Shown here piece by piece: positions 5,447 through 29,335 of a stretch of 64,000 nt of DNA (positions within the stretch are counted from its first letter, which is position 1; every line of letters starts with the position of its first letter). The notes under the pieces are model-generated. The model was not told the DNA's origin. It saw nothing but the letters and a program-made list of their open reading frames with translations, and ran no database searches. Source of the stretch: Acidobacteriaceae bacterium (GTDB taxonomy: Bacteria > Acidobacteriota > Terriglobia > Terriglobales > Acidobacteriaceae). The position numbers were made by a program, and so were the translations under genes. The stretch is from NCBI GenBank assembly GCA_025462735.1, contig JAOAPC010000024.1, positions 434,001-498,000 on the forward strand. The letters are read 5' to 3'.

Positions 5447-6679
5447 GTGGTGAATTCAGCTCCACCATCCCGCCTCGCTTACATCGACTGGCTTCGCGGC
5501 CTCGCTTGCGTGCTCATGTTCCAAACCCATTGTTATGACGCCTGGCTGGGCGGCACCGCCCGCGACTCCAAATTTTTCATGTGGTCGCAACTCGGTGGCA
5601 CGTTTCCCGCGCCGCTGTTTCTGTTCCTGGCGGGGATCTCATTCGCAATCGTGGTTGACAAACTTCGGCAGAAGAATGTCCCTCCCGGCCAGATCGCACG
5701 AACGACCATCAAGCGCGGCGCCGAAATCTTCGCCCTCGGCTTGTTGTTTCGGCTTCAGGAATATGCAATTTCTCTGGGCTGGGCGCCATGGAGCGACTTA
5801 TTCCGCGTGGACGTCCTAAATACAATCGGCGCTTCCATGATGCTGATGGGCGTTGTCTGCTGGATCGTCCTCGGGGTATGGAATCCTAGACAGCCACGTA
5901 GCCCCGGACGCCCTCGTCCGGGGAACTCCTCGGCTGAAACCCAAAGCTCCACGAGCCTAATAGCCGTAGCTGTGCTTGCGACCGCCGCTATTTCCGCTTT
6001 CACTCCCTTGCTCTGGACCACGTGGCGCCCGCGCTTCCTACCCTGGGAGCTCGAAAGTTACATCGATGGCGTTCACAATCTCGGCCAGCCACAGTCATGG
6101 ATTTTCCCGATCTTCCCGTGGACCGCTTTTGCCTTCGCCGGGCTCACTGTGGGATTTCTTCTGCTGAGCGCGCCCGCGAAGAAGCTGGGCGGCTACGCAT
6201 TCTTTTGGATCGCAGTCTCTGGAATCGGTTTGGTTTTGTTCTCGAAATTTTTAGACTCGCGAGGCCTGCGAATCTATCCCGTCTATGATTACTGGCACAC
6301 CAGCCCCAGCTTTTTCATAATCCGCGTTGGCATGCTGTTGCTTCTCACAACATTTGCTTATGGCTGGTGCCGGTGGGGGCCGGGTCAGTGGGGTTTCAGC
6401 CCGCTCATTCAGTTAGGCAAAACTTCGTTGCTGGTTTACTGGGTGCACATCGAATTGGTCTATGGACGGTTCGCGATTTTACCCCACCGCAGCCAGACTA
6501 TCGCAGGAGCATCGCAGGGACTGCTGGTCATATTTCTTACCATGCTGGCGCTCTCTTTATTGCGAACAACGTTGCGGACTAAATTGAGTGAACGATTCCG
6601 TGAGGCACTGACTTGGCGACGCCGCCGTGTGCAATCCACAGCCGCAGCCTCCGGCTTGTCCAGTACAAAGTTGCAGTAG
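5447..6679 (+). CDS. Multi-pass membrane acyltransferase (DUF1624/HGSNAT-like)
   Basis: A 410-residue membrane protein with about ten hydrophobic segments. It opens with YIDWLRGLACVLMFQTHCYD, which matches the first helix of the heparan-alpha-glucosaminide N-acetyltransferase-like/DUF1624 group (D-x-x-R-G near the N-terminus, conserved H). FPAPLFLFLAGISFAIVV is the typical third segment. The likely role is transmembrane acyl transfer onto a sugar; the substrate is unknown. Translation starts at GTG 5447. Residues about 150-170 (PRQPRSPGRPRPG) are encoded by a palindromic repeat inserted in frame at 5902-5923, giving a charged loop between two helices. The C-terminal 30 residues are basic. Confidence 0.8.
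   Translation: MVNSAPPSRLAYIDWLRGLACVLMFQTHCYDAWLGGTARDSKFFMWSQLGGTFPAPLFLFLAGISFAIVVDKLRQKNVPPGQIARTTIKRGAEIFALGLLFRLQEYAISLGWAPWSDLFRVDVLNTIGASMMLMGVVCWIVLGVWNPRQPRSPGRPRPGNSSAETQSSTSLIAVAVLATAAISAFTPLLWTTWRPRFLPWELESYIDGVHNLGQPQSWIFPIFPWTAFAFAGLTVGFLLLSAPAKKLGGYAFFWIAVSGIGLVLFSKFLDSRGLRIYPVYDYWHTSPSFFIIRVGMLLLLTTFAYGWCRWGPGQWGFSPLIQLGKTSLLVYWVHIELVYGRFAILPHRSQTIAGASQGLLVIFLTMLALSLLRTTLRTKLSERFREALTWRRRRVQSTAAASGLSSTKLQ
5902..5923. repeat. Palindromic repeat inserted in frame in the acyltransferase gene
   Basis: CCCCGGACG and CGTCCGGGG form a 9-bp stem around a CCCT loop, inside the coding sequence of the acyltransferase at 5447-6679. The frame stays open and the element is translated as a Pro/Arg/Gly-rich loop. 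Confidence 0.75.
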
Positions 6680-6701: not shown

Positions 6702-7295
6702 TCACGCGGGAACGACTATAGAGTGTTCGGAGCAAATTGTGTGGTATGGCTCGCCTTTCATTGCTCCCTGAAACGCCTTTGCCGGATAAGCACAGCGGAG
6801 ATGAAAGAAGTGGGTCCGGGCAAGCTCATTCCAAAGCTGTTCCAGTCGGATCGCGGAGTCATACTTTTTCTGCTTCCACAGAACCGCAACCATTTCGCCG
6901 AAGACGACTACGCGCTTATGCTTTACATCGGCGGCAGCTTGCGCCTTGCGAATTACGCTTGCAAACTCTCGCAGAAATTTCTGCCGGTTGGGACCACTTG
7001 GGTCCATGAATATATTCAAAGCCTCAGACGCATCCAGAGCAGTGAAGCGTCCTTGTCTGGCCGCTGCTTCTATGTCGATGTTTTGCGCGGATAACCGTTT
7101 GCGCAGGCCCTTGAGATGCGCTTTTGTCATAACCACCGCAACGGACTCACCCGCCTTGAGGGCGCTTCCAAACGAGGCACCTAGCCCGTCCAGCAGGAAG
7201 CTGTCGCTGGTGTAGAACTGGACTACGTGGGCCTCATCCGGCACTAACTGAGACGGAAAAACGTCAGTGCCCAAGGCACCCATTATCGTGGACAT
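6702..7295 (-). CDS. MEDS (DcmR-type sensory) domain protein
   Basis: A 197-residue protein that matches the MEDS sensory domain over nearly its full length. The conserved start HVVQFYTSDSFLLDGLGASF is followed by ALKAGESVAVVMTKAHLKGLRKRL, then GRFTALDASEALNIFM and VVVFGEMVAVLWKQKKYDSAIRLEQLWNEL. The RecA-like fold of this domain was described in DcmR of methylotrophs and methanogen sensors, and in some proteins it regulates anti-sigma or histidine kinase partners. Here it stands alone, without a kinase or DNA-binding domain. It ends 22 bp from the convergent acyltransferase. A soluble signalling role is inferred. Confidence 0.8.
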   Translation of the reverse strand: MSTIMGALGTDVFPSQLVPDEAHVVQFYTSDSFLLDGLGASFGSALKAGESVAVVMTKAHLKGLRKRLSAQNIDIEAAARQGRFTALDASEALNIFMDPSGPNRQKFLREFASVIRKAQAAADVKHKRVVVFGEMVAVLWKQKKYDSAIRLEQLWNELARTHFFHLRCAYPAKAFQGAMKGEPYHTICSEHSIVVPA

Positions 7296-8920: not shown

Positions 8921-8976
8921 TCACGAACCTACCGGATCAATCCGACAGTGTACGCTAGCAGCCTCTCTCGGGCTTG

Positions 8977-9150
8977 GTTTCCTTCCGCCCACAGGTTACG
9001 GCTGGTCTTGTATTCTGGAGCAATTGCACCTCGCTCGCAGAGGCCACATCAGCTCGGAATGAAATCGCAGGAGACTCTCGTGTGTAAATTCATCTGCTTC
9101 CTAGCTCTCTTGGTTGTCGGTATCACACTGCCCGCCATCGCCGCACCTCT
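8977..9150 (+). repeat. Duplicated promoter/leader segment, copy A
   Basis: About 170 bp here align with 10401-10563 with few mismatches. Shared blocks include ACGGCTGGTCTTGTA, CTGGAGC, GCACCTCGCTCGCAGA, CAGCTCGGAATGAAATC, and GGAGACTCTCGTGTGTAAA followed by TTCATCTG. The copy covers the upstream region, start codon and signal-peptide codons of the oxidoreductase at 10479. Similarity stops near codon 30. Confidence 0.85.
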
Positions 9151-9184
9151 GTCCGAGTCCCGGATTCTGCAGTTCCGCGAATAA
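9059..9184 (+). pseudogene. Truncated duplicate of a secreted oxidoreductase 5' end
   Basis: This 41-codon reading frame begins MKSQETLVCKFICFLALLVV, nearly identical to the signal peptide of the Gfo/Idh oxidoreductase at 10479. It then diverges and stops at 9184. The upstream sequence is duplicated too, so it is probably still transcribed. It looks like a gene remnant left by a local duplication or insertion. A functional exported micropeptide is possible but has no support. Confidence 0.65.
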
Positions 9185-10089: not shown

Positions 10090-10241
10090 CCAAGCTCGAA
10101 GGCGCCAGGATTCTTGCCAGGCGTGGAATAATCCCGAAAGAATAAAATTCCACATCTGACAATCAACTTGCAGTGGTATTAACCTGACCGGGGGCGAGCG
10201 GTTTTCCCATCAAAACGGGAGATTCGATTTGATCGGGAATA

Positions 10242-10333
10242 TGGCGCAGGAGAGAGATTCGGACCCCCGGTACGGTTTCCCGCACAGCGGTTTTAAAGAC
10301 CACAGCCGGGTTCTGAATCGCTTGGAAACCTTT
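10242..10333 (-). pseudogene. Decayed tRNA-Ser-like sequence
   Basis: Read on the minus strand, this stretch aligns with the intact tRNA-Ser at 11659-11748. It has a terminal GCCA, a T-loop-like TCCGAAT after GGGGG, and an anticodon arm GTGGT-CTTTAAA-ACCGC. The T-stem has lost one base, the acceptor 5' strand does not pair with the 3' strand, and the anticodon position reads TTA. These faults indicate a non-functional relic. It occupies most of the 389-bp gap 10090-10478, which otherwise holds only the upstream part of the leader duplication. Confidence 0.45.
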
Positions 10334-10400
10334 CTACGCTACTTCAGTTTTCAACCGTAGTTTTGCTACAGCGATAAATTCACGGCCTCCCTCCAACTCC

Positions 10401-10563
10401 GTTTCCTTCCCCAGGTCACGGCTGGTCTTGTAATCTGGAGCGATCGCACCTCGCTCGCAGAAGCCGGACCAGCTCGGAATGAAATCACAGGAGACTCTCG
10501 TGTGTAAATTCATCTGTTTCCTAGCTCTCTTGGTTGTCAGCATCACGCTGCCCACCGTAACCG
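10401..10563 (+). repeat. Duplicated promoter/leader segment, copy B
   Basis: This is the partner of 8977-9150 and is attached to the intact oxidoreductase gene. It includes about 78 bp of upstream sequence and the first 28 or so codons. Confidence 0.85.
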
Positions 10564-11621
10564 TGGCGCAGTCCCCCGTTCAGTCCCTCGGCAAGCCCTT
10601 ACGCGTCGCCATCGTCGGACTGGTGCATGGGCATGTTGCCGGCTTTCTCTGGCCCGCCCTCAAGCGCAGCGACATTCAGATCGTGGGGATCGTCGAAGCG
10701 GACCAGCAACTCGCACATCGGTACGCGGACCAGTACAAACTCGATCCGCAATTGCTGTATAGCGATGTTGAACAGATGCTGACGACGGTGCAGCCGCAGG
10801 CGGTGTTGGTGTACACGGACACGCGCGATCATCGCCGCATTGTGGAAGCCGCTGCACGCCATCGTATTCCGGTGATGATGGAGAAGCCCCTGGCGGTCAG
10901 CACGGAAGACGCGCTGGCAATCAAGCGGGTCGCCGATGCCGGTCATATCCCTGTGCTGGTGAACTACGAAACCACGTGGTATCCCAGCAACACCGCTGTC
11001 TATCAACTGGTGCGCGATGGCGCGCTCGGCGATATCCGCAAGGTTGTTGTACACGATGGCCATAAGGGTCCGAAGGAGATCGGTGTCCCACCTGAATTCT
11101 TCGCGTGGCTGACCGATCCGGCACGCAACGGTGCGGGAGCGCTATTCGATTTCGGCTGTTATGGCGCAGACCTTATGACGTGGCTGATGAATGGAGAAGC
11201 CCCGATCACCGTCACCGCGGTCACGCAACAAATCAAGCCTGAGATTTATCCGCACGTCGATGATGAGGCGACCATCATTCTCACCTATCCAAAAGCGCAG
11301 GCCATCCTGCAAGCATCATGGAATTGGCCGTTCGACCGCAAAGACATGGAAGTATATGGAGCGACCGGCGAAGCTATTACGGTGCGCCGCGACGACCTTC
11401 GCGTACGCCGGAACGGAGACGATGAAGAGCGACAGCAATCCGCTCCGGCGCTCACCACTCCCTACAATGATCCAATCTCATACCTGATCGCAGTCGTCTC
11501 CGGAGAGATCAAGCCCAGCGGGCTTTCGGCGCTCGATACCAACGTTACCGTGGTCCGCATTCTGGATGCCGCACGAGAGTCAGCAAAAACGGGCAAGACG
11601 ATCAGGCTCGCAGATCGTTAG
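10479..11621 (+). CDS. Exported Gfo/Idh/MocA-family oxidoreductase
   Basis: A 380-residue NAD(P)-dependent sugar or cyclitol dehydrogenase-like protein. Residues 1-31 form a signal peptide without twin arginines (CKFICFLALLVVSITLP, then TVAQ). From residue 41 the Rossmann domain reads LRVAIVGLVHGHVAGF, a divergent glycine motif. The family EKP signature is at residues 135-137 (MMEKPLAV). The C-terminal beta-sheet domain includes GALFDFGCYGADLMTWLM, typical of the family. The presence of a Sec-type leader on a nucleotide-dependent enzyme is notable; exported relatives are usually Tat-type. The substrate is unknown. The promoter and leader are duplicated upstream at 8977. The gene ends 38 bp before tRNA-Ser. 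Confidence 0.88.
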   Translation: MKSQETLVCKFICFLALLVVSITLPTVTVAQSPVQSLGKPLRVAIVGLVHGHVAGFLWPALKRSDIQIVGIVEADQQLAHRYADQYKLDPQLLYSDVEQMLTTVQPQAVLVYTDTRDHRRIVEAAARHRIPVMMEKPLAVSTEDALAIKRVADAGHIPVLVNYETTWYPSNTAVYQLVRDGALGDIRKVVVHDGHKGPKEIGVPPEFFAWLTDPARNGAGALFDFGCYGADLMTWLMNGEAPITVTAVTQQIKPEIYPHVDDEATIILTYPKAQAILQASWNWPFDRKDMEVYGATGEAITVRRDDLRVRRNGDDEERQQSAPALTTPYNDPISYLIAVVSGEIKPSGLSALDTNVTVVRILDAARESAKTGKTIRLADR

Positions 11622-11658: not shown

Positions 11659-11748
11659 TGGCGGAGAGTGAGGGATTCGAACCCCCGATACCCGTTAAGG
11701 TATGCCGGTTTTCAAGACCGGTGCCATCAACCGCTCGGCCAACTCTCC
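11659..11748 (-). tRNA. tRNA-Ser (anticodon UGA)
   Basis: The minus strand folds as a class II tRNA. Acceptor GGAGAGT pairs with ACTCTCC, the discriminator is G, and CCA is encoded. The D-arm region reads GGCCGAGCGGTTGATGGC. The anticodon arm CCGGT-CTTGAAA-ACCGG gives UGA. A long variable arm and the T-arm GGGGGTTCGAATCCCTC complete the fold. The 5' half is repeated at 14513-14554. Confidence 0.96.
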
Positions 11749-11750
11749 GC
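11710..11750. repeat. Putative attachment repeat in tRNA-Ser (left)
   Basis: This 41-bp segment runs from the anticodon loop to the 5' end of tRNA-Ser. It matches 14513-14554 apart from one inserted T in the right copy. It includes TTTCAAGACCGGTGCCATCA and GCTCGGCCAACTCTCCGC. Similarity stops abruptly on both sides, as expected for an integration crossover. Confidence 0.8.
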
Positions 11751-11900
11751 GCGTCTTTATTTAGAATATCTTACCGTAATGACGCTAGATGGCATGCTTC
11801 TTCTCACGCATACACCAACTCAGTCGGAATAGTGAAATAGCGTTTGAAGTCGGGGCTGAGCGGATCATGGAGGAAAGTGACCGACGCTGGCCGGTGAAAT

Positions 11901-12869
11901 ATGCAGATGACAATCGAGCTGAATGAGGCAGACCTTCTCGCGAGGATGAAGAATTTCGAGGATCACCTCGTAGAACGCAAAGTCGTATCGGATAACAAGG
12001 ATTGGAAGAAGACGGCGGTTGCTTTTGCGAATTCGGTTCCTGTCGGGATTCCGGCGATCCTCTTCATCGGTGTTCGAGATGGCGGTGAAATTGAGACGCC
12101 ACAGAAGAATTTGGATGAGGCTCAAAAGAAATTCAACTCGAAGATGAAAACGGTCTATCCGCGAATTTTTTATGTCCCGAAGATCGTGTCGGAGAATGGA
12201 CTGCAAGCACTCGCGGTAATCATTCCCGGCAGCGAATTGCGACCGCATTTTGCAGGACTAGCATATGTACGGCGAGGCTCAGTAACGGAAGATGCTTCAG
12301 AAGAACAATTGAGTGAATTGATTGCACAACGTAACAGTAAGACAGCGACAATACTTCGATGGAAGGGGAAGAATGTGACTGTTTTTCTGCGGAGCGGCGA
12401 TTCCGAAGCCGCTTGGCCGAATAGCACTATCGTTGTTGATTGCAACCAGTTCTACGTTAGCTTGCAGACCGTCCCGCATGAGCCTGCAACTTCCTTTCCT
12501 TTAAGCCGTGTTGAAATTAACTTCGATCACGCGAGATACAGATTGCAACTGGAAATTGCGGACGTGAGTCGAAACGCTTGGAAAGTCGAATTGGAGCGAC
12601 ACGCTCGGCAGATCGTTGGTTATTCGATGACTCACGAGGGGCGGCTACTACTGCGATATCTTCTAATCCACGGAAAAGGCGAATGCTCAACTCCCTTCAT
12701 GCCGGAGATTTCCATGGATACTCAGAACCGAGAAATGGAAATAGCAGTGAAAAATGGTTTAGTTGAGCGCAGACTGCAAAAGGACACGATCCCGCACTCG
12801 ATATATATCGTGGAGGCGCAATACCAGCTCGTCCTACAGAAAGTCTTGCCGGACATCCTCAAGGAATAA
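11901..12869 (+). CDS. AlbA_2 (Schlafen-like) domain protein
   Basis: A 322-residue protein. The N-terminal 140 residues match the AlbA_2/Schlafen-type domain: an acidic start (NFEDHLVERKVVSDNKDWKK), then TAVAFANSVPVGIPAILFIGVRDGG, LDEAQKKFNSKMKTVYPRIF, ALAVIIPGSELRPHFAGLAYVRRGS and a closing helix EEQLSELIAQRNSK. This fold binds nucleic acid or nucleotide and is frequent in defence and toxin-antitoxin regulators. The C-terminal half (residues 150-322) is unassigned; its end could form a winged-helix-like unit. The gene is first in the island and sits 38 bp before the Mrr-like nuclease on the same strand, so the two probably form an operon. An alternative ATG lies at 11907. Confidence 0.75.
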   Translation: MQMTIELNEADLLARMKNFEDHLVERKVVSDNKDWKKTAVAFANSVPVGIPAILFIGVRDGGEIETPQKNLDEAQKKFNSKMKTVYPRIFYVPKIVSENGLQALAVIIPGSELRPHFAGLAYVRRGSVTEDASEEQLSELIAQRNSKTATILRWKGKNVTVFLRSGDSEAAWPNSTIVVDCNQFYVSLQTVPHEPATSFPLSRVEINFDHARYRLQLEIADVSRNAWKVELERHARQIVGYSMTHEGRLLLRYLLIHGKGECSTPFMPEISMDTQNREMEIAVKNGLVERRLQKDTIPHSIYIVEAQYQLVLQKVLPDILKE

Positions 12870-12907
12870 ATAGGAGTCCCTGAAATCTGGGATCATCTCA
12901 ATAAATA

Positions 12908-14002
12908 ATGCAAATTCAAGCTCTAGAACTCGCATTGAAGGCGCTCGACCCCGATACGTTTCAAAAGCTCTGTTTTCAGTTATTGAAGGAAAAACACCCC
13001 GAGCTTGAGCCGAAACACGTGGACGGAAGGGGCGGTGATGAAGGCTTGGACGTGTTCGCGGGAGAATTATACGGCGATCTGGCAATCTGGCAATGCAAAG
13101 CTTTCCCCAATGGTGTCGGTCAGTCTCAGAGAGCAAAAATCAGAGAATCGCTCCGAACGGCTCTGAAGAACTTCTCGCCATCTTTCTGGGTTTTGTGTCT
13201 GTCTGTGGATATGGACACCAAAGCGCGTCGCTGGTTTGAGAGACTACAGAAATCTTATGAATCAAAGGTCAAGATCACTGACTTCAGCGCTTCTCACATT
13301 GTGAACGAGTTGCTTTTTCGGCGTACTCTTCGCAACAGTTTCTTCCCAACGGTGATGCTCGACATTCCGGAACTCAAACGCCGAGTCACCGAGACCGGGA
13401 AGCTAAGCACTCAGGAGTTGGGAAAGCTAACAGATGAAAATGTCGAAGACTTGATCGAGCGACACCAGGATCAGGATGCCCGTTTCCGTTATGAATACAT
13501 CTTTGACCCTGAATCTGGCCCACCGTCAGCCCAACCTCCGGTCTCGCCCGGCCTTGTAATGACCATTGCTGATGGGACAAAGAAGCTCAACCTTTATGCA
13601 AGGGATGTTAAGGCTTTGCAAGCTAACCCTCCACGCTTCTCGGTCGGCTTTACAGGAAGCGGAATTGAGAAATTCGAGACCTTCCTTGATACCGGTGCCG
13701 CACAGGAATTCGGAGTGGATGAACTCGGGCCGTTTACAACGAACCTTCCTCTCCTCCAGGCTTCTCCGGTTAGGCCGCAAACGCTGGTTGTCGCTCTGTC
13801 TCCCGCTGTCACCAGTAGGAAGCACAATGTGCGCGTAATTTTTCAAAAGAATGAAGCAGAATACGTTCAATACAACGTGATGGAGATGAACCCTGTTCAA
13901 GTGGGCAGGAAGGAGATGACCCTTGCCGTTTCACACGCCCGAGTACCGCTCCGAATCCAGTTTGTTGTTCCGTTTCAAGGTGAACTTACGAACTGGTGCT
14001 AA
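12908..14002 (+). CDS. Mrr-type restriction endonuclease-like protein (5' part of a frameshifted gene)
   Basis: This frame of 364 codons begins with an Mrr-like PD-(D/E)XK nuclease domain: helix PDTFQKLCFQLLKEKHPELE, then GRGGDEGLDVFAG carrying the catalytic Asp, then AIWQCKAF with the Q-x-K half of the motif. A helical segment with QSQRAKIRESLRTAL follows. Mrr-type enzymes cleave modified or foreign DNA. The middle and C-terminal parts (residues 170-364) are beta-rich and unassigned. The frame ends with a short unconvincing tail (GELTNWC), while an overlapping frame continues with good coding character to 14357. A one-base indel around 13960-14000 is therefore likely. It is the second gene of the island, with a 38-bp gap to the AlbA_2 gene. 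Confidence 0.75.
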   Translation: MQIQALELALKALDPDTFQKLCFQLLKEKHPELEPKHVDGRGGDEGLDVFAGELYGDLAIWQCKAFPNGVGQSQRAKIRESLRTALKNFSPSFWVLCLSVDMDTKARRWFERLQKSYESKVKITDFSASHIVNELLFRRTLRNSFFPTVMLDIPELKRRVTETGKLSTQELGKLTDENVEDLIERHQDQDARFRYEYIFDPESGPPSAQPPVSPGLVMTIADGTKKLNLYARDVKALQANPPRFSVGFTGSGIEKFETFLDTGAAQEFGVDELGPFTTNLPLLQASPVRPQTLVVALSPAVTSRKHNVRVIFQKNEAEYVQYNVMEMNPVQVGRKEMTLAVSHARVPLRIQFVVPFQGELTNWC

Positions 14003-14357
14003 GCCCACAGAGAAAGACCTCGAAGCCATCGCTCTGCTGAAACGCTATATGGACAATGGTACGCTGGACGTGAGCGACATCACCATGACAGTTGCGAAGG
14101 CTGAGGAAAACAAGGGTCTTCTGTCTGAGCAGTTTCCCGATGGCAAGGGCTTATTTAGGGTCGCACACCAGGAACATACGCCAGTTCCAGAAATTTTCGG
14201 AATCCCGGTCAGAACCGGCCCAGTTGCGATGGACGTTGAAGCGGAGATCAGGGATTTTCCCGAGACGCGAGAGAGGTTTCAAAAAGCTCGTATCGGGAGT
14301 GGAGTGAAAATATCCCTTCGTCCTCTTGGCCCAGTGCGATTCTCACTGCTTTCATAA
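13923..14357 (+). CDS. C-terminal continuation of the Mrr-like protein in another frame
   Basis: This frame overlaps the end of the preceding one by 80 bp. From about 13980 it gives a well-formed sequence (NLRTGAKPTEKDLEAIALL, then MDNGTLDVSDITMTVAKAEEN) that ends at 14357. The first 20 residues are probably out-of-frame translation. The simplest view is one original protein of about 480 residues, split by a frameshift that is either real decay or an assembly error. A separate small gene is less likely, since no ribosome binding site precedes it. Confidence 0.55.
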   Translation: MPFHTPEYRSESSLLFRFKVNLRTGAKPTEKDLEAIALLKRYMDNGTLDVSDITMTVAKAEENKGLLSEQFPDGKGLFRVAHQEHTPVPEIFGIPVRTGPVAMDVEAEIRDFPETRERFQKARIGSGVKISLRPLGPVRFSLLS

Positions 14358-14715
14358 CCTGGAATTTGATGCGCTCAATAAAAGGAATTCCATTGCACAA
14401 TTCATTGCACGGTCATTGATTTTTCCCAAGTGAACCCGAAACCCTCCTAGCGGAAGGTCAAGCAGCGATGTAAAGGATTGAAAACAGGACGTACCTAACA
14501 AGACGGGCTGCTTTCAAGACCGGTGCCATCAACCTGCTCGGCCAACTCTCCGCAGCCTAGGAGGCTTCTCCGTTATTACAACACAGAAATGTGGCCGAAT
14601 AATCAGCGTTGGTAACGGGCGCTAACCCTCGCACTCGCACCATAACCAGTAGACACGCGAGCAGCCATTTACAAACCTTTACTCTTTTATTCCGAATGCT
14701 TGCATCAAATTTTCC
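14358..14715. other. Island right end and following intergenic region
   Basis: These 358 bp hold the partial tRNA-Ser repeat at 14513-14554 and otherwise no plausible reading frame. The last 160 bp presumably contain the promoter for the VWFA gene. Confidence 0.5.
14513..14554 (-). repeat. Partial tRNA-Ser copy, putative attachment repeat (right)
   Basis: This copy reproduces the 5' half of tRNA-Ser, from the anticodon loop to the first base of the acceptor. One extra base sits in the D-loop region (CAACCTGCTCGG against CAACCGCTCGG). The 3' half is absent, so it cannot be a tRNA. It marks the far end of the island. Confidence 0.8.
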
Positions 14716-15867
14716 ATGCGCTCTCAAGTACTGGGTGTAGTTCTGTCGCTTGCAGCCACGGTGTTGTTTGGCCAGCAGAGCCCCGACCCGCAACCCAAGC
14801 CGGAAGCAAACGACCACCCAGCGACATCGATGTCGGTGGACGCAAAAGTCGTGAACGTGTTGGCCACGGTGCGCGACAAACACGGAAAGATCGTTCCCAA
14901 TCTCACCAAAGATGATTTCACTCTGGAAGAAGACACCCATCCGGTGGCGATTCACTATTTCGCCAAGGAAACCGATCTTCCGCTCACGCTCGGCCTGCTC
15001 GTCGACACCAGCATGAGCCAGCGTCGCGTTCTCGATCAGGAGCGCGCTGCCAGCAAAACTTTTCTCGACCAAGTGCTGCGCGAAAAAGACACCGCATTTC
15101 TAATTCATTTCGACAAAGAGGTCGAGTTGTCGCAGGACCTCACTTCCTCACGACCCAAGCTCGAGGCTGCTCTCGAGTCGTTGCAAACTCCCGCGCCCAC
15201 TCAGGAAGACAATCCTCCTGGCTCCGGCGGGGGCTCAGGTGGAAACTGGCCAGGGGGTGGCAGAAATGGCGGTGGTGGCGGTGGCGGAAGAAGGCACGGT
15301 TCGCATCACGCGGGAACTCTGCTATACGACGCGGTCTATCTCGCGTCGAATGAACTCATGCAGAAGCAGCGGGGCCGCAAAGCTTTGATTGTCCTTTCGG
15401 ACGGGGTGGATCGAGGAAGTAAGGAAAGCTTAGAGAGTGCGATCGAGTCAGCCCAGCGTGCAGACACCGTGGTTTACGCAGTTTTGTTCAAAGATGACGA
15501 GGAACACGGCAACCGTGGCGGCTTTGGTTTCCCTGGGATGGGCGGAGGAGGAATGGGCGGCGGCGGAATGGGTGGCGGCAGGCGCGGCGGCGGGCAACGA
15601 CCTCCCGAGCCGGAAGAACAAAGACCAGATGGCAAGAAAATTCTTGCTCGTATTTCCAAGGAAACTGGGGGACGCTTGTTTGAGGTTTCTAAGAAGCAGC
15701 CAATCGACCAAATTTACAGCAGCATTCAAGAAGAATTGCGCAATCAGTACAGCCTGGGTTTCACCCCTGAAAAAAACGACACTGCCGGATATCACAAGCT
15801 TCTGCTGAAAACCAGGCAAAAGGACACTACCGTTCAGGCGCGCAACGGATATTACGCCGGGCAGTGA
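14716..15867 (+). CDS. Secreted VWFA-related protein, acidobacterial type
   Basis: A 383-residue exported protein. A signal peptide covers residues 1-20. The conserved entry segment VVNVLATVRDKHGKIVPNLTKDDFTLEED is followed by a von Willebrand type A domain with the metal-binding motif D97-T-S99-M-S101 (LLVDTSMS) and KALIVLSDGVDRGS. The closing segment reads ISKETGGRLFEVSKKQPIDQIYSSIQEELRNQYSLGF. This matches the VWFA-related family that is expanded in Acidobacteria. Two Gly-rich inserts (about residues 165-195 and 265-295, GGGGMGGGGMGGG) break the domain. Such proteins are thought to bind partners outside the cytoplasm; the partner is unknown. Confidence 0.88.
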   Translation: MRSQVLGVVLSLAATVLFGQQSPDPQPKPEANDHPATSMSVDAKVVNVLATVRDKHGKIVPNLTKDDFTLEEDTHPVAIHYFAKETDLPLTLGLLVDTSMSQRRVLDQERAASKTFLDQVLREKDTAFLIHFDKEVELSQDLTSSRPKLEAALESLQTPAPTQEDNPPGSGGGSGGNWPGGGRNGGGGGGGRRHGSHHAGTLLYDAVYLASNELMQKQRGRKALIVLSDGVDRGSKESLESAIESAQRADTVVYAVLFKDDEEHGNRGGFGFPGMGGGGMGGGGMGGGRRGGGQRPPEPEEQRPDGKKILARISKETGGRLFEVSKKQPIDQIYSSIQEELRNQYSLGFTPEKNDTAGYHKLLLKTRQKDTTVQARNGYYAGQ

Positions 15868-16047: not shown

Positions 16048-18759
16048 ATGAAGGCTCTTTACCGCATCTTCAGCACTAGCATTAGCATTCTCACTCTTTC
16101 AGCACTGATGTCAGGGCCGGTGCTCATGGCTCAAGTGCAAGAAGATCAGCAATACGATGCTCCTGACCAGAGCTACGATCAGCCGCAGTATGACGCCCAA
16201 GCCGACACTCAGCCGGCTACCCCCGATCCGCCTGCGCGTGCCGCTCGCCTGCAGTACATGAATGGCTCAATCTCCGTGCAGCCTCAGGGAACCGGCGATT
16301 GGGTTTCCGGAGAGATCAACCGGCCACTGACGGATTCAGACAACATCTGGGCTGACAAGAACTCACGTGCTGAACTCAGCGTGGGGACAGGCGTAATCCG
16401 CATTGACTCCGAAAGCAGTCTTACCCTGACCGACGTCGCCGAAAATATGGTGCAGTTGCAGCTCCACCAGGGGGCGCTAAATTTACACGTCCGCCGCTTA
16501 TACGACAACGAACGATATGAAGTGGACACGCCAAACCAGGCGTTCACAGTGTCGAAGCCGGGCGATTATCGTTTCGATGTCGATCCTGATGGCGATAAGA
16601 CTGTGGTCACGGTTTGGAGCGGCGAAGGTGAAGCCTCCGGAGATGGTCCGGCAGTGCGGGTTCGCGCCGGTCAGCAGGTGCGGTTCAGCAATGGCACTTC
16701 CATGACGGTGGACGTTCACGACGCGCCCGCCCCTGATTCATTCGACGAGTGGGCACGCAACCGCGATCAGCGGGGCGACAATTCCGAGTCTGCACGTTAC
16801 GTCTCGCCTGACGTTGTGGGTTCAGACGACCTCGACGAGTACGGCACCTGGCGCAATACTCCCGAGTACGGGCACGTATGGTCCCCGAGGGTGGATCCCG
16901 GGTGGGCGCCATACACCTCTGGTCACTGGGTTTGGGAAGACCCGTGGGGATGGAGCTGGGTTGATTATGAGCCGTGGGGATTCGCTCCCTTCCACTATGG
17001 CCGTTGGGTCTATGCCGGCGGCGGGTGGGGATGGGCTCCCGGTCCAATTTATGCTCGCCCGTACTATGCTCCCGCGCTGGTCGGCTGGTTTGGCGGCGAC
17101 TTCGGTGTCGGAGTCGGTTTCGGCGGAGGCTTCGGCTGGTGCCCGCTTGGGTTTGGTGAACCGTTTATCCCGTGGTATGGCGTAAGTCGCGGCTATTTCA
17201 ACCAAGTTAATATCACCAACACGCGCATCACCAACGTCAGCAATATCTACAATAACCACTTTGTGAACGGGCGCCTCAGCGCGCGCAACGGCTATCAGGC
17301 GCACTACGCGAACATGCACGCGCCGGGCGGATTCACCGCCGTCTCACGCAACACGCTGGTGAACTCGCTGTCGGTTAGCCGTAACAACATCCGGGTTTCG
17401 CCAAACGCCTTGAACCGGGTGAGCGCACTTCATTCGCCCGGCGTTGCCCCGACACGGGCCAGCATGATGGGATCGAGAGGAGCCCGGGCTGCAGTTCCAC
17501 CGCAACGGGCATTTGCCCGGCCGGTGGTAAGCCGGTCAACTCCTTCTGCTGGGAACCGCGGTTCGTTCAACGCGGGCGCTCGGGGCGCGAATGCAGGCAA
17601 TCTGGGAAGACCGGGTCCGGTCGGCGGAATGCAGCGCCCAATAAATGCTGGTACGCAGCAGCGTCCAACGCTCGGTGCCGCCAATCGCGGGCCGGGACTT
17701 AATAATCCTCGCTCCAATAATCCTGGGTTCCATAATGGACCCAATAATGCCGCCGGTTCCACTAATCGCGGGCCGGTATTCAATAATTCGCGAGGACCGC
17801 AGAACGGCTCAATGGGATCACGGTCCGTTCCGCGTCCTCCAACTGCAGGTGGTGGAAAGTCTGGCGGCCGGGGCATGAATGCGGGTTCAGTCAATTCGAA
17901 TTCGCGTCCGATCAATTCGCGACCCATGAATTCGCAACCGTCGGCGCCGCAAATGAGCTCGCGGAACAATGTGCCGCCTCCGTCATCTGGTGGTATGGGT
18001 CCAAGCCAGCCTTCCTTCTCGCAGCGCGGCGGTAGTCCGAATTTTCCGCGGCCTTCAAGTCCGCAGAGCTCACCTGCTCCGCGCTCGAATGAGCGAAACG
18101 GGCCAAGAGGTGCAGCCAGCGTCCCGCGCCCGTCGGGTGCAGTAACCCAGCGCGGATACTCATCGGGCCCAGATCGCGGAAGCTATTCCAGCCCACGTCC
18201 CTCGCCTTCATATCAGGCGAGCAACCGAGGTAGTTACGGCGGGGGTTCGTATAGCGGACCGTCTCCCAGCTCTGGTGGCGGATCTTATAGTCGTCCATCG
18301 TCACCTTCGTATGATCGAGGCTCTTCGGGACCCGGACGGTCCACTCCTTCATACGGTGGCGGTTCATATGGTCGTCCGTCGCCCCCGTCTGGCGGTGGAT
18401 CTTACGGTCGGCCTTCACCTTCGCAGGGTGGTGGCGCACACGGACGCACCATGTCGATGCCGTCATACGGTGGAGGAGGCTACGGTGGTAGCAGGGCTTC
18501 TTCTCCGTCCTATGGCGGAGGTAGGGTACCAGCCTACAGTGGTGGCGGCGGCGGCCGATCCATGCCGACGCCGTCGTACGGCGGCGGTGCTGGCCGCTCA
18601 GGTGGATTCGGAGGCGGTGGGCACGTCTCTTCTGGGGGAAGTTTTGGCGGAGGTGGTGGTCATAGCAGCGGTGGCGGAGGGGGCCATAGCGGCGGCGGTG
18701 GTGGTGGTGGTCACAACAGTGGTGGCAACGGTGGCGGAAGTGGACACGGACATCACTAA
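16048..18759 (+). CDS. Secreted FecR/DUF6600 protein with long Gly/Ser/Arg/Pro tail
   Basis: A 903-residue exported protein with a good ribosome binding site (GGGGGAGG) 4 bp before the ATG. After the signal peptide (residues 1-28) and an acidic Gln/Tyr/Asp-rich stretch comes a FecR-like domain (about 70-220: RAELSVGTGVIRIDSESSL, YEVDTPNQAFTVSKPGDYRF). A DUF6600 Trp-rich segment follows (about 262-345), with repeats of W-x-P-x-V and WGWSWVDYEPWGFAPFHYGRW. From about residue 470 the sequence is low-complexity: first Asn/Pro/Arg-rich, then repeats of SYGGGSYGRPSP type, ending in Gly/His (GGGHSGGGGGGGHNSGG). It is probably a surface or periplasmic structural protein. A strong terminator follows at 18784. 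Confidence 0.85.
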   Translation: MKALYRIFSTSISILTLSALMSGPVLMAQVQEDQQYDAPDQSYDQPQYDAQADTQPATPDPPARAARLQYMNGSISVQPQGTGDWVSGEINRPLTDSDNIWADKNSRAELSVGTGVIRIDSESSLTLTDVAENMVQLQLHQGALNLHVRRLYDNERYEVDTPNQAFTVSKPGDYRFDVDPDGDKTVVTVWSGEGEASGDGPAVRVRAGQQVRFSNGTSMTVDVHDAPAPDSFDEWARNRDQRGDNSESARYVSPDVVGSDDLDEYGTWRNTPEYGHVWSPRVDPGWAPYTSGHWVWEDPWGWSWVDYEPWGFAPFHYGRWVYAGGGWGWAPGPIYARPYYAPALVGWFGGDFGVGVGFGGGFGWCPLGFGEPFIPWYGVSRGYFNQVNITNTRITNVSNIYNNHFVNGRLSARNGYQAHYANMHAPGGFTAVSRNTLVNSLSVSRNNIRVSPNALNRVSALHSPGVAPTRASMMGSRGARAAVPPQRAFARPVVSRSTPSAGNRGSFNAGARGANAGNLGRPGPVGGMQRPINAGTQQRPTLGAANRGPGLNNPRSNNPGFHNGPNNAAGSTNRGPVFNNSRGPQNGSMGSRSVPRPPTAGGGKSGGRGMNAGSVNSNSRPINSRPMNSQPSAPQMSSRNNVPPPSSGGMGPSQPSFSQRGGSPNFPRPSSPQSSPAPRSNERNGPRGAASVPRPSGAVTQRGYSSGPDRGSYSSPRPSPSYQASNRGSYGGGSYSGPSPSSGGGSYSRPSSPSYDRGSSGPGRSTPSYGGGSYGRPSPPSGGGSYGRPSPSQGGGAHGRTMSMPSYGGGGYGGSRASSPSYGGGRVPAYSGGGGGRSMPTPSYGGGAGRSGGFGGGGHVSSGGSFGGGGGHSSGGGGGHSGGGGGGGHNSGGNGGGSGHGHH

Positions 18760-27697: not shown

Positions 27698-29335
27698 TCA
27701 GATCTTTCTCAACCTGAACCAAAAAAACTGATAGGGCGCCAACGTCAGCAAATACGGCAGCTCGCCTATGCGCGGGAAAATATTTCGCCCAAACATTTCA
27801 ATCAGAATATTTCCTTTGTAGGTTTTCAAATCCAGTTCTACCGCCTGCGCTTTGCTGGAAAGATTGTTCACTGCCAAAATCGTCTCATTTCCGAGCTTGC
27901 GCGTGTACGCCAGAACTCGATGGTTCGCGGGATAGAGAAATTGTATTGATCCGCGCCCCAGCACCGGGGTCGCTCGCCTGATCTTTATCAACCGCTTCAT
28001 CCAGGAAAGTAGAGAGTGGTCGAAGCGCTTTTGCGACTGCACATTGATCGCCTGGTAGCCATACACCGGATTCAACATGAGAGGCGAATAAAGTCCCTCG
28101 GGATCGGCCGTGGAGAATCCGCCATTCCAACCGCCGTCCCACTGCATAGGTGTGCGTACCCCATGTCGATCGCCAAGGTTCACATTGTCTCCCATGCCAA
28201 TCTCATCACCGTAATAGATGATAGGCGTGCCGGGGAGAGACATCAGCAATCCGTTCATCAGCTCAATTTTGCGCCGGTCATTGTCCAGCAAAGGCGCAAG
28301 CCGCCGCCGGATCCCCAGGTTCAGGCGCATGGCCTTCTCTTTGGCGTACTCGTCATACATGTAATCCCGCTCCATGTCGGTCACCATTTCGAGCGTGAGT
28401 TCGTCATGGTTGCGCAGGAACAGGCACCACTGGCACACCTCGGGAATTTCCGGGGTTTGCTTGAGAATTTCGGTGATCGGCTTTCGATCTTCCAGCTTCA
28501 GGCCCATGAACATTCGGGGCATGAGTGGAAAATGAAAAGCCATGTGGAACTCGTCGCCATTGCCAAAATAAGCGCGAAGATCGGTCGGCCATTGATTGGC
28601 TTCCGCCAGCAACATGCGGCCGGGAAACTCTCGATCTATCTGCGCCCGCAGGTCTTTTATAATCTGGTGCGTTTCCGGAAGGTTCTCGCAATTCGTTCCT
28701 TCGCGCTCCACCAGATAAGGCACTGCATCCAGACGAAACGCGTCGACTCCCATACTCAGCCAAAATTTCATGATGTCCCACATTTCCTCACGGACCTGCG
28801 GGTTGTCATAGTTAAGGTCGGGCTGATGGCTGAAGAAACGGTGCCAGTAATATTGCTTCGAAACCGGGTCCCACGCCCAGTTCGACAATTCCGTGTCCAG
28901 AAAAATGAGCCGCGTTCCCTTGTATTTGGTGTCGGTGTCGCTCCAGACATACCAGTCGCGCCGGGGATTGTTGCGAGAGCTACGCGATTCCTGGAACCAC
29001 GGGTGCTGGTCCGAAGTATGGTTCAGCACCATCTCGATAATCACCCGGATACCGCGCTGGTGGGCCGCTTCCAGGAATGTCTTGAAATCGTCCAACGTGC
29101 CGTAGGTAGGATTAACCGACCGATAATCCGCAATGTCGTATCCATCATCGCGCAATGGCGACGGGAAAAAGGGCATCAGCCAGATCGCGGTAATGCCGAG
29201 TTCCTGGAGATAGTCGAGCTTCTGCGCCAGGCCCCGGAAATCGCCGTTTCCGTCGCCGCTGCTGTCGTAAAAAGCGCGGACGTGCACCTGATAGATAACC
29301 GCGTCCTTGTACCAAAGCGCGTCTTGTGCGGCCAA
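27698..29335 (-). CDS. treS: Trehalose synthase-type GH13 alpha-amylase family enzyme
   Basis: A 545-residue GH13 enzyme that probably interconverts maltose and trehalose. The sequence matches TreS from the N-terminus: ALWYKDAVIYQVHVRAFYDSSGDGNGDF, then MVLNHTSDQHPWF. The catalytic triad is visible: nucleophile Asp in FRLDAVP, acid/base Glu in LLAEANQ and the third Asp in LRNHDE. GTPIIYYGDEIGMGDN is also typical. A C-terminal beta domain closes the protein; there is no maltokinase fusion. Other GH13 isomaltase-like activities cannot be excluded. It is first in a minus-strand run with the glycosyltransferase (149 bp), the channel and the LolA-like gene. Confidence 0.9.
   Translation of the reverse strand: MAAQDALWYKDAVIYQVHVRAFYDSSGDGNGDFRGLAQKLDYLQELGITAIWLMPFFPSPLRDDGYDIADYRSVNPTYGTLDDFKTFLEAAHQRGIRVIIEMVLNHTSDQHPWFQESRSSRNNPRRDWYVWSDTDTKYKGTRLIFLDTELSNWAWDPVSKQYYWHRFFSHQPDLNYDNPQVREEMWDIMKFWLSMGVDAFRLDAVPYLVEREGTNCENLPETHQIIKDLRAQIDREFPGRMLLAEANQWPTDLRAYFGNGDEFHMAFHFPLMPRMFMGLKLEDRKPITEILKQTPEIPEVCQWCLFLRNHDELTLEMVTDMERDYMYDEYAKEKAMRLNLGIRRRLAPLLDNDRRKIELMNGLLMSLPGTPIIYYGDEIGMGDNVNLGDRHGVRTPMQWDGGWNGGFSTADPEGLYSPLMLNPVYGYQAINVQSQKRFDHSLLSWMKRLIKIRRATPVLGRGSIQFLYPANHRVLAYTRKLGNETILAVNNLSSKAQAVELDLKTYKGNILIEMFGRNIFPRIGELPYLLTLAPYQFFWFRLRKI

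Follow-up and report, generated by a model that had tools for sequence, protein, structure and literature searches.

We analyzed a window of 64,000 nucleotides from an Acidobacteriaceae bacterium (GenBank assembly GCA_025462735.1; positions 434001–498000 of contig C12 in a 4.36 Mb draft genome of 24 contigs, here G000), in which the 5′ half of a tRNA-Ser(UGA) gene occurs twice, on either side of a gene-bearing stretch of 2.76 kb. We call this stretch the Ser island and read it as the decayed remains of an integrative element that targeted a tRNA gene and was of the 5′-fragment kind, most likely moved by a tyrosine integrase that has since been lost or that acted in trans. We give this reading a probability of roughly three in four.

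Duplication of the tRNA-Ser(UGA) 5′ half at the island borders

A repeat search aligned 41 bp at the 5′ end of the intact gene with a second copy, which we call the remnant, lying 2.76 kb away in the same orientation. The copies agree in two exact blocks, 11710–11732 with 14512–14534 (23/23) and 11733–11750 with 14536–14553 (18/18), and the remnant carries one extra base between them, giving 41 of 42 aligned positions overall. When the tRNA was used as a BLAST query over the whole window, the remnant was recovered at 41/42 (E 4e-14); no further partial tRNA-Ser copy of comparable score was found in the window, the next matches measuring 10–14 nt with E > 2. A chance origin of the 41-base match is negligible. 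A first-pass annotation of this DNA had reported the recurrence with its extra base, which we confirm, and had placed the remnant at 14513–14554, which is off by one from the actual 14512–14553. Its further claim that the 5′ half and not the 3′ half is duplicated, with the island on the promoter side, is borne out by the position and orientation of the repeats.

The breakpoint coincides with a defined point in the tRNA. The anticodon TGA occupies nucleotides 35–37, so nucleotide 39, at which both copies stop exactly, is the final base of the seven-base anticodon loop. This seven-base loop is given in PMC8371274 as a standard overlap segment of tyrosine integrases. DNA folding at the island junctions was ordinary (z 0.15 and −1.08). 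Four tRNA-Ser genes were found in the genome, with the anticodons UGA, CGA, GCU and GGA; because the gene at the island is the only one found with UGA, it is presumably needed.

The remnant junction (CTGCTTTCA..ACC) has a near-copy of 14 nt (86%) at 14346–14359, 162 bp inside the island, which may be due to chance. At 10241–10333 on the minus strand, 1.4 kb from the working gene, lies a degenerate full-length tRNA-Ser pseudogene with TTA at the anticodon position. Its alignment with tRNA-Ser(UGA) scored 57, compared with a maximum of 36 over 1000 shuffles, and a search against Rfam returned sub-threshold matches only. Counted with the working gene and the remnant, the pseudogene brings the number of tRNA-Ser-derived sequences within 4.3 kb to three.

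An uninterrupted site in a congener

In a member of the same genus (G004, locus L073), a single uninterrupted tRNA-Ser, identical in sequence to that of the window, is preceded upstream by an orthologue of the window gene at 16048–18759 (70% identity). The window segment 14512–14604 aligns with the G004 DNA upstream of this tRNA at 83.7% identity, the tRNA half included. With the tRNA excluded, the flank of the remnant scored 61 against G004, a value reached by 0 of 1000 shuffles (shuffled maximum 35), and the island-side flank of the intact tRNA scored 15, which 802 of 1000 shuffles equaled or exceeded. Because the upstream DNA of G004 matches the remnant flank and not that of the intact tRNA, the remnant represents the 5′ half that the gene had originally, together with the native promoter region, and both the 5′ half and the upstream DNA of the working tRNA now come from the island. 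When the sequence left of 11710 was joined in silico to that right of 14511, ARAGORN read a tRNA-Ser across the join, and 138 of 158 columns agreed with G004. The empty site that had been predicted for relatives is thus present on the right side, where G004 joins the remnant flank to one intact tRNA-Ser; the left side is rearranged.

A second congener, G003, likewise has a single tRNA-Ser with the same neighbor gene and no island. Relatives free of the island that nevertheless carry both tRNA copies were not encountered: the contigs fetched from G003 and G004 (18.2 and 12.5 kb) hold no second 5′-half copy. Nor was a 5′-half copy seen at any of 15 tRNA-Ser(UGA) loci from other genomes, whose flanks are limited by contig ends; extra 3′-end copies occurred at 3 of these 15. 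Among the tRNA-Ser(UGA) loci fetched, the sole other match was one of 19 nt in opposite orientation (L081). A neighboring penicillin-binding-protein gene used as query returned 41 loci, with a tRNA-Ser on the fetched stretch in two only, G004 and G003.

The block ATTTCTGTGTTGTAATAA, which belongs to the native upstream region and is found in G004 as well, is now turned toward the remnant, and to judge by position the working tRNA is probably transcribed from island DNA. The earlier proposal that the tRNA promoter now comes from the island therefore agrees with where the native upstream region sits; no consensus promoter in 11749–11900 rose above shuffled sequences.

Composition and genes of the island

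The island body is poorer in G+C than the rest of the window. A value as low occurred in none of the 111 sliding tiles of the window outside the island and in none of 268 tiles from 42 other G000 loci, mostly around tRNA genes. Two genes are present (Table 1). The Mrr_cat match of gene B in Pfam is marginal (E 2.1e-4, 21.8 bits vs a cut-off of 21), and in PADLOC the gene resembles LmuA (E 3.5e-14), which we take to be the Lamassu nuclease. Three relatives encode both parts of gene B in one frame, as reckoned from coordinates, with the C-terminal part matching at E 3e-6 (L113), 7e-4 (L111) and 0.008 (L112); gene B is thus frameshifted in this assembly, unless the sequence contains an error. We infer that the island cargo is defensive.

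Both genes are accessory, as the first-pass annotation had supposed, and not part of the family core. Relatives of gene A were detected in 9 of 300 family genomes (E 1e-10) and those of gene B in 8 of 300 (E 1e-6), the own genome included each time, and at the same thresholds neither gene was found in the seven other genus members, which are drafts of 65–99% completeness. In genome G120 (L226:7186–17381), a 10 kb island at tRNA-Arg(CCG) includes a relative of gene A whose sequence contains an internal stop. In this case the intact tRNA occupies 7186–7262 and its nucleotides 31–77 are repeated at 17335–17381, an integrase adjoins the tRNA, and genes for a capsid protein and a prohead protease are present, making it an island of the ordinary 3′ type. 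Phage-like islands that target tRNA genes are thus able to carry relatives of gene A. No relatives of either gene were confirmed among viral contigs, and gene A had no match among phage records. Gene B matched 10 plasmid records (9 from Streptomyces, 1 from Rhodococcus); the 8 listed contain the N-terminal nuclease part only, and no record covers 80% of the gene. Searches of both genes against solved structures gave no sequence match at E 0.01, and those against NCBIfam and PHROGs returned nothing below E 0.01.

Outside the island, a direct duplication of ~190 bp was observed between 8961–9154 and 10385–10574 (83% identity over 194 columns), which spans the upstream region and the signal-peptide start of a Gfo/Idh/MocA gene.

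Origin of the island

We propose that the chromosomal tRNA-Ser received, in its anticodon loop, a DNA that was circular or mobile in some other form and that had the first 39 bases of tRNA-Ser(UGA) in its attachment site; this integration most likely took place by means of a tyrosine integrase. The crossover would have joined the 5′ half and upstream DNA of the element to the chromosomal 3′ half, creating the present working gene, and would have displaced the original 5′ half, along with the promoter region native to it, to the far end; the one-base insertion there would mark the beginning of decay. The integrase may since have been lost, or the element may have been moved by one acting in trans. 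What is left would be a relic of 2.76 kb that holds a Schlafen/AlbA_2 gene and a frameshifted gene for an Mrr/LmuA-like nuclease.

A number of observations weigh against this proposal. The native upstream flank is visible in one congener only, G004; the upstream DNA of G003 matches neither flank clearly (scores 21 and 24, with 95 and 28 of 1000 shuffles as high). The 3′ (left) side of the tRNA is unlike in all three genomes, G000, G003 and G004: in G004 no more than ~260 bp separate the tRNA from an orthologue of 5447–6679, and this interval holds two additional tRNA 3′-end copies, whereas the window has ~5 kb at this place. The empty site is consequently seen on the island (right) side only, and this is the main limit of our reading. 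The three reading frames of the island that were compared with Pfam gave no match to a recombinase, in keeping with the earlier description of an island that lacks one. A search for tyrosine recombinases elsewhere in the genome, as had been suggested, gave 11 matches to PF00589, none of them on contig C12. The two island ends share no word of at least 7 bases, and arm-type sites are accordingly not visible. Genes A and B were adjacent in no relative examined (6 loci for B, 8 for A), which gives no indication that they form one system. The exact-scar pattern, which misses scars with another break or with substitutions, occurred in 1 of 398 family genomes, namely G000 itself, and thus no active relative was found. 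Finally, there seems to be a non-integrase route to partial tRNA copies in this genome, to which we return below.

Elsewhere in G000, four PF00589 matches above the cut-off, on contigs C6, C9 (12576), C16 (22978) and C23, are found 3′ of a tRNA gene, with sides taken from coordinates, as is a PF00589 fragment on C15. Two candidates were rejected. The open reading frame at 27698–29335, which matched the longest reading frame of another locus, was considered as an integrase and proved to be an alpha-amylase in Pfam. The integrase match at C13:94206–94751 was considered as a 5′-side case, and the weak tRNA match that it adjoins is a 3′ fragment of tRNA-Gln(CUG) (C13:95479–95543; L118:9480–9544), with the intact gene 22.7 kb away on the same strand (C13:72724–72794; L153), which is the outline of an ordinary 3′-type island. 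In a further congener (L070:9516–11587, from G005:C76), a tRNA-Ser(CGA) has been shortened to roughly the 64 bases at its 3′ end, and a different complete tRNA-Ser(CGA) lies ~1.5 kb off, with a gene resembling the G000 tyrosine integrases directly on its 5′ side; this arrangement may represent an element that carries a tRNA of its own.

REP-like repeats and other possible routes to partial tRNA copies

At tRNA-Thr(GGU) and tRNA-Gln(UUG) of G000, the tRNA 5′ part is also duplicated, and the spacer between the partial and the full copy holds a repeat resembling repetitive extragenic palindromic (REP) sequences. This REP-like repeat is short and palindromic, starts with TTGAGGCG and has the form TTGAGGCG...CCGAAATCC...; at tRNA-Thr(GGU), the break lies within one base of the anticodon-loop end. 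The repeat has 11 matches in G000, at 6 of which direct repeats of 22–40 bp border the main copy, both inside and outside tRNA genes. REP-like loci of G003, G004 and G007 have flanking direct repeats of up to 63 bp, some in arrays. We sampled 30 REP-like loci, one per genome, which were the best matches among 150 family genomes, not chosen by tRNA and with the query locus included. Flanking direct repeats above a set score were present at 9 of the 30, as opposed to 14 of 2047 control pairs; the remaining 21 had none, and the 9 include a tandem array (L260) and an imperfect pair (L264, 24/29). Four of the 30 (query included) have a tRNA gene no more than 400 bp away, and each of these four shows exact repeats of 24–32 bp. 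The junction GATTCGAACTTGAGGCG, in which the T-loop is joined to the REP-like repeat, was found in 11 of 100 family genomes, and its reversed control in 0.

The REP-like repeat has the appearance of an insertion that duplicates a long stretch of its target (~20–60 bp), and these data suggest that partial tRNA copies can arise in this acidobacterial family without an integrase. By duplicating tRNA ends, such repeats would provide a second source of partial tRNA genes that surveys and annotation could confuse with island scars. No description of the repeat turned up among the papers that literature searches on acidobacterial repeats listed, which is no proof of its absence from print.

The 41-bp duplication could accordingly be a long target duplication left by a non-integrase insertion, through the process that seems to place REP-like repeats in the tRNA genes of this family. 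The frequency of direct repeats around REP-like loci and the 5′-part duplications at tRNA-Thr(GGU) and tRNA-Gln(UUG), with the position of the Thr break, are consistent with this possibility, and the border repeats of the Ser island (41/42 bp) fall inside the observed size range. We nevertheless consider it unlikely, given that the Ser island contains no REP-like repeat, junctions included (best match 13 nt, E 0.25), that its junction, CTTGAAA followed by GCAGCC, differs from the AAG or GAAC followed by TTGAGGCG at the REP-like loci, and that the REP-like spacers at Thr and Gln measure ~100 bp compared with a gene-bearing insert of 2.8 kb. That the island was placed by an unrecognized REP-associated process of this family and not by an integrase is, in our estimate, decidedly unlikely; if true, such a process would, in addition, bring DNA with genes on it into tRNA genes and exchange the 5′ halves and the promoters of these genes.

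Entry of a circular DNA carrying the tRNA 5′ half by RecA-dependent homologous recombination over the 41 bp would yield the same product with no site-specific recombinase, in agreement with the failure to find an integrase. We regard this route as very unlikely: 41 bp is short for homologous recombination, and the breakpoint would not be predicted to fall exactly at the end of the anticodon loop. An assembly artefact at a short repeat is extremely unlikely, even though the genome is in 24 contigs and the junctions lie at the repeat, because the inserted base limits the longest exact match between the copies to 23 bp, too short to mislead a usual assembler, and the window sequence runs on past the remnant, across the VWA gene, into the orthologue of the tRNA-bordering gene of G003 and G004. 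Integration of a tRNA-targeting element thus remains the explanation that we favor.

Table 1 Features of the Ser island and its surroundings (window coordinates unless a locus is named)
Feature	Position	Strand	Remarks
Intact tRNA-Ser(UGA)	11659..11748	−	ARAGORN; 5′ half read as island-supplied, 3′ half as original
41-bp repeat, tRNA-proximal copy	11710..11750	−	tRNA nucleotides 1–39 plus two upstream bases
Island DNA upstream of working tRNA	11749..11900	−	where the promoter must now lie
Island body	11751..14511	.	2,761 bp; GC 0.494 vs 0.557 in rest of window
Gene A	11901..12869	+	322 aa; Schlafen/AlbA_2 domain (PF04326, E 3.5e-9)
Gene B, N-terminal part	12908..14002	+	364 aa; Mrr_cat nuclease domain (PF04471), LmuA-like
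Gene B, C-terminal part	13923..14357	+	different frame from N-terminal part
Remnant (displaced original tRNA-Ser 5′ half)	14512..14553	−	one extra D-loop base
Native tRNA-Ser upstream region	14554..14604	−	conserved in G004; contains block cATTTCTGTGTTGTAATAA
VWA gene	14716–15867		between remnant and gene at 16048; not at this place in G004, G003
FecR/DUF6600 gene	16048..18759	+	orthologue directly upstream of uninterrupted tRNA-Ser in G003, G004
REP-like loci with flanking duplications	L148:9936–10122, L128:997–1087, L073:7257–7420, L258, L262, L267–L269, L275		

Comparison with known systems

Islands at tRNA genes had been described in the first-pass annotation as usually duplicating the 3′ half. 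This agrees with the Islander collection, in which 3,760 of 3,919 islands are reported with a 3′ fragment, and the 5′ class, reported there with the other 159, makes the present arrangement less unusual than was implied (PMC4383910). Within G000, 11 tRNAs have partial end copies of at least 20 nt within ~10 kb, 8 of them of 3′ ends and 3 of 5′ parts (Ser, Thr-GGU and Gln-UUG); this survey started from 48 ARAGORN calls, with one tRNA counted twice, and its ~10 kb limit misses, for example, the 3′ fragment of tRNA-Gln(CUG).

As in the 5′-fragment islands that Islander describes, an intact tRNA and a displaced end fragment stand in the same orientation with the 5′ fragment upstream, and an anticodon-centered breakpoint is one of the two Islander site types (PMC4383910). 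The length of 2.76 kb falls within the 2–200 kb that Islander accepts. An integrase reading frame inside the island, which Islander also looks for, is lacking, so its integrase filter would reject the Ser island, and we file it as a relic resembling the 5′-fragment class. An uninterrupted site in relatives, an added test that is no Islander filter, was seen on the right side and in G004 only. The ordinary 3′-fragment island of G120 is alike in its tRNA target, its anticodon-loop crossover and the partial copy at its far end, and differs in that the 3′ half is duplicated, with the consequence that the native 5′ side is kept, and in that the integrase sits beside the tRNA.

Rebuilt bacterial tRNA genes are stated in PMC8371274 to keep their original promoter with very few exceptions. 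The same source describes the archaeal pTN3-like integrases of Thermococcales, which use the tRNA 5′ half as attB, with the restored tRNA expressed from element DNA through the integrase promoter, a mode seldom found in bacteria (PMC8371274). The Ser island resembles these in the half that is used and in the expected source of expression, and differs in that the pTN3-like systems are archaeal, involve tRNA-Leu in the T. nautili case, and retain an integrase that is split by integration (PMC8371274). In the tRNA-dependent lysogeny reported for actinobacteriophages, an element in an essential tRNA gene likewise supplies the tRNA function; there the phage carries a whole tRNA and the target is not rebuilt, whereas the Ser gene is rebuilt at the junction (PMC10865867). 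As a functional tRNA-Ser sits at the island junction, the Ser island falls outside tRNA-dependent lysogeny.

No acidobacterial case turned up among the papers that literature searches on tRNA integration sites listed, which does not prove that none is in print. Taken together, these comparisons place the Ser island in the broad kind of tRNA genes split by an inserted island, as an uncommon arrangement that is already catalogued, and add an acidobacterial case to a minority class. Here apparently mobile DNA has replaced the front half and the upstream region of the sole UGA tRNA-Ser gene found in G000, and a congener preserves the empty site on one side.

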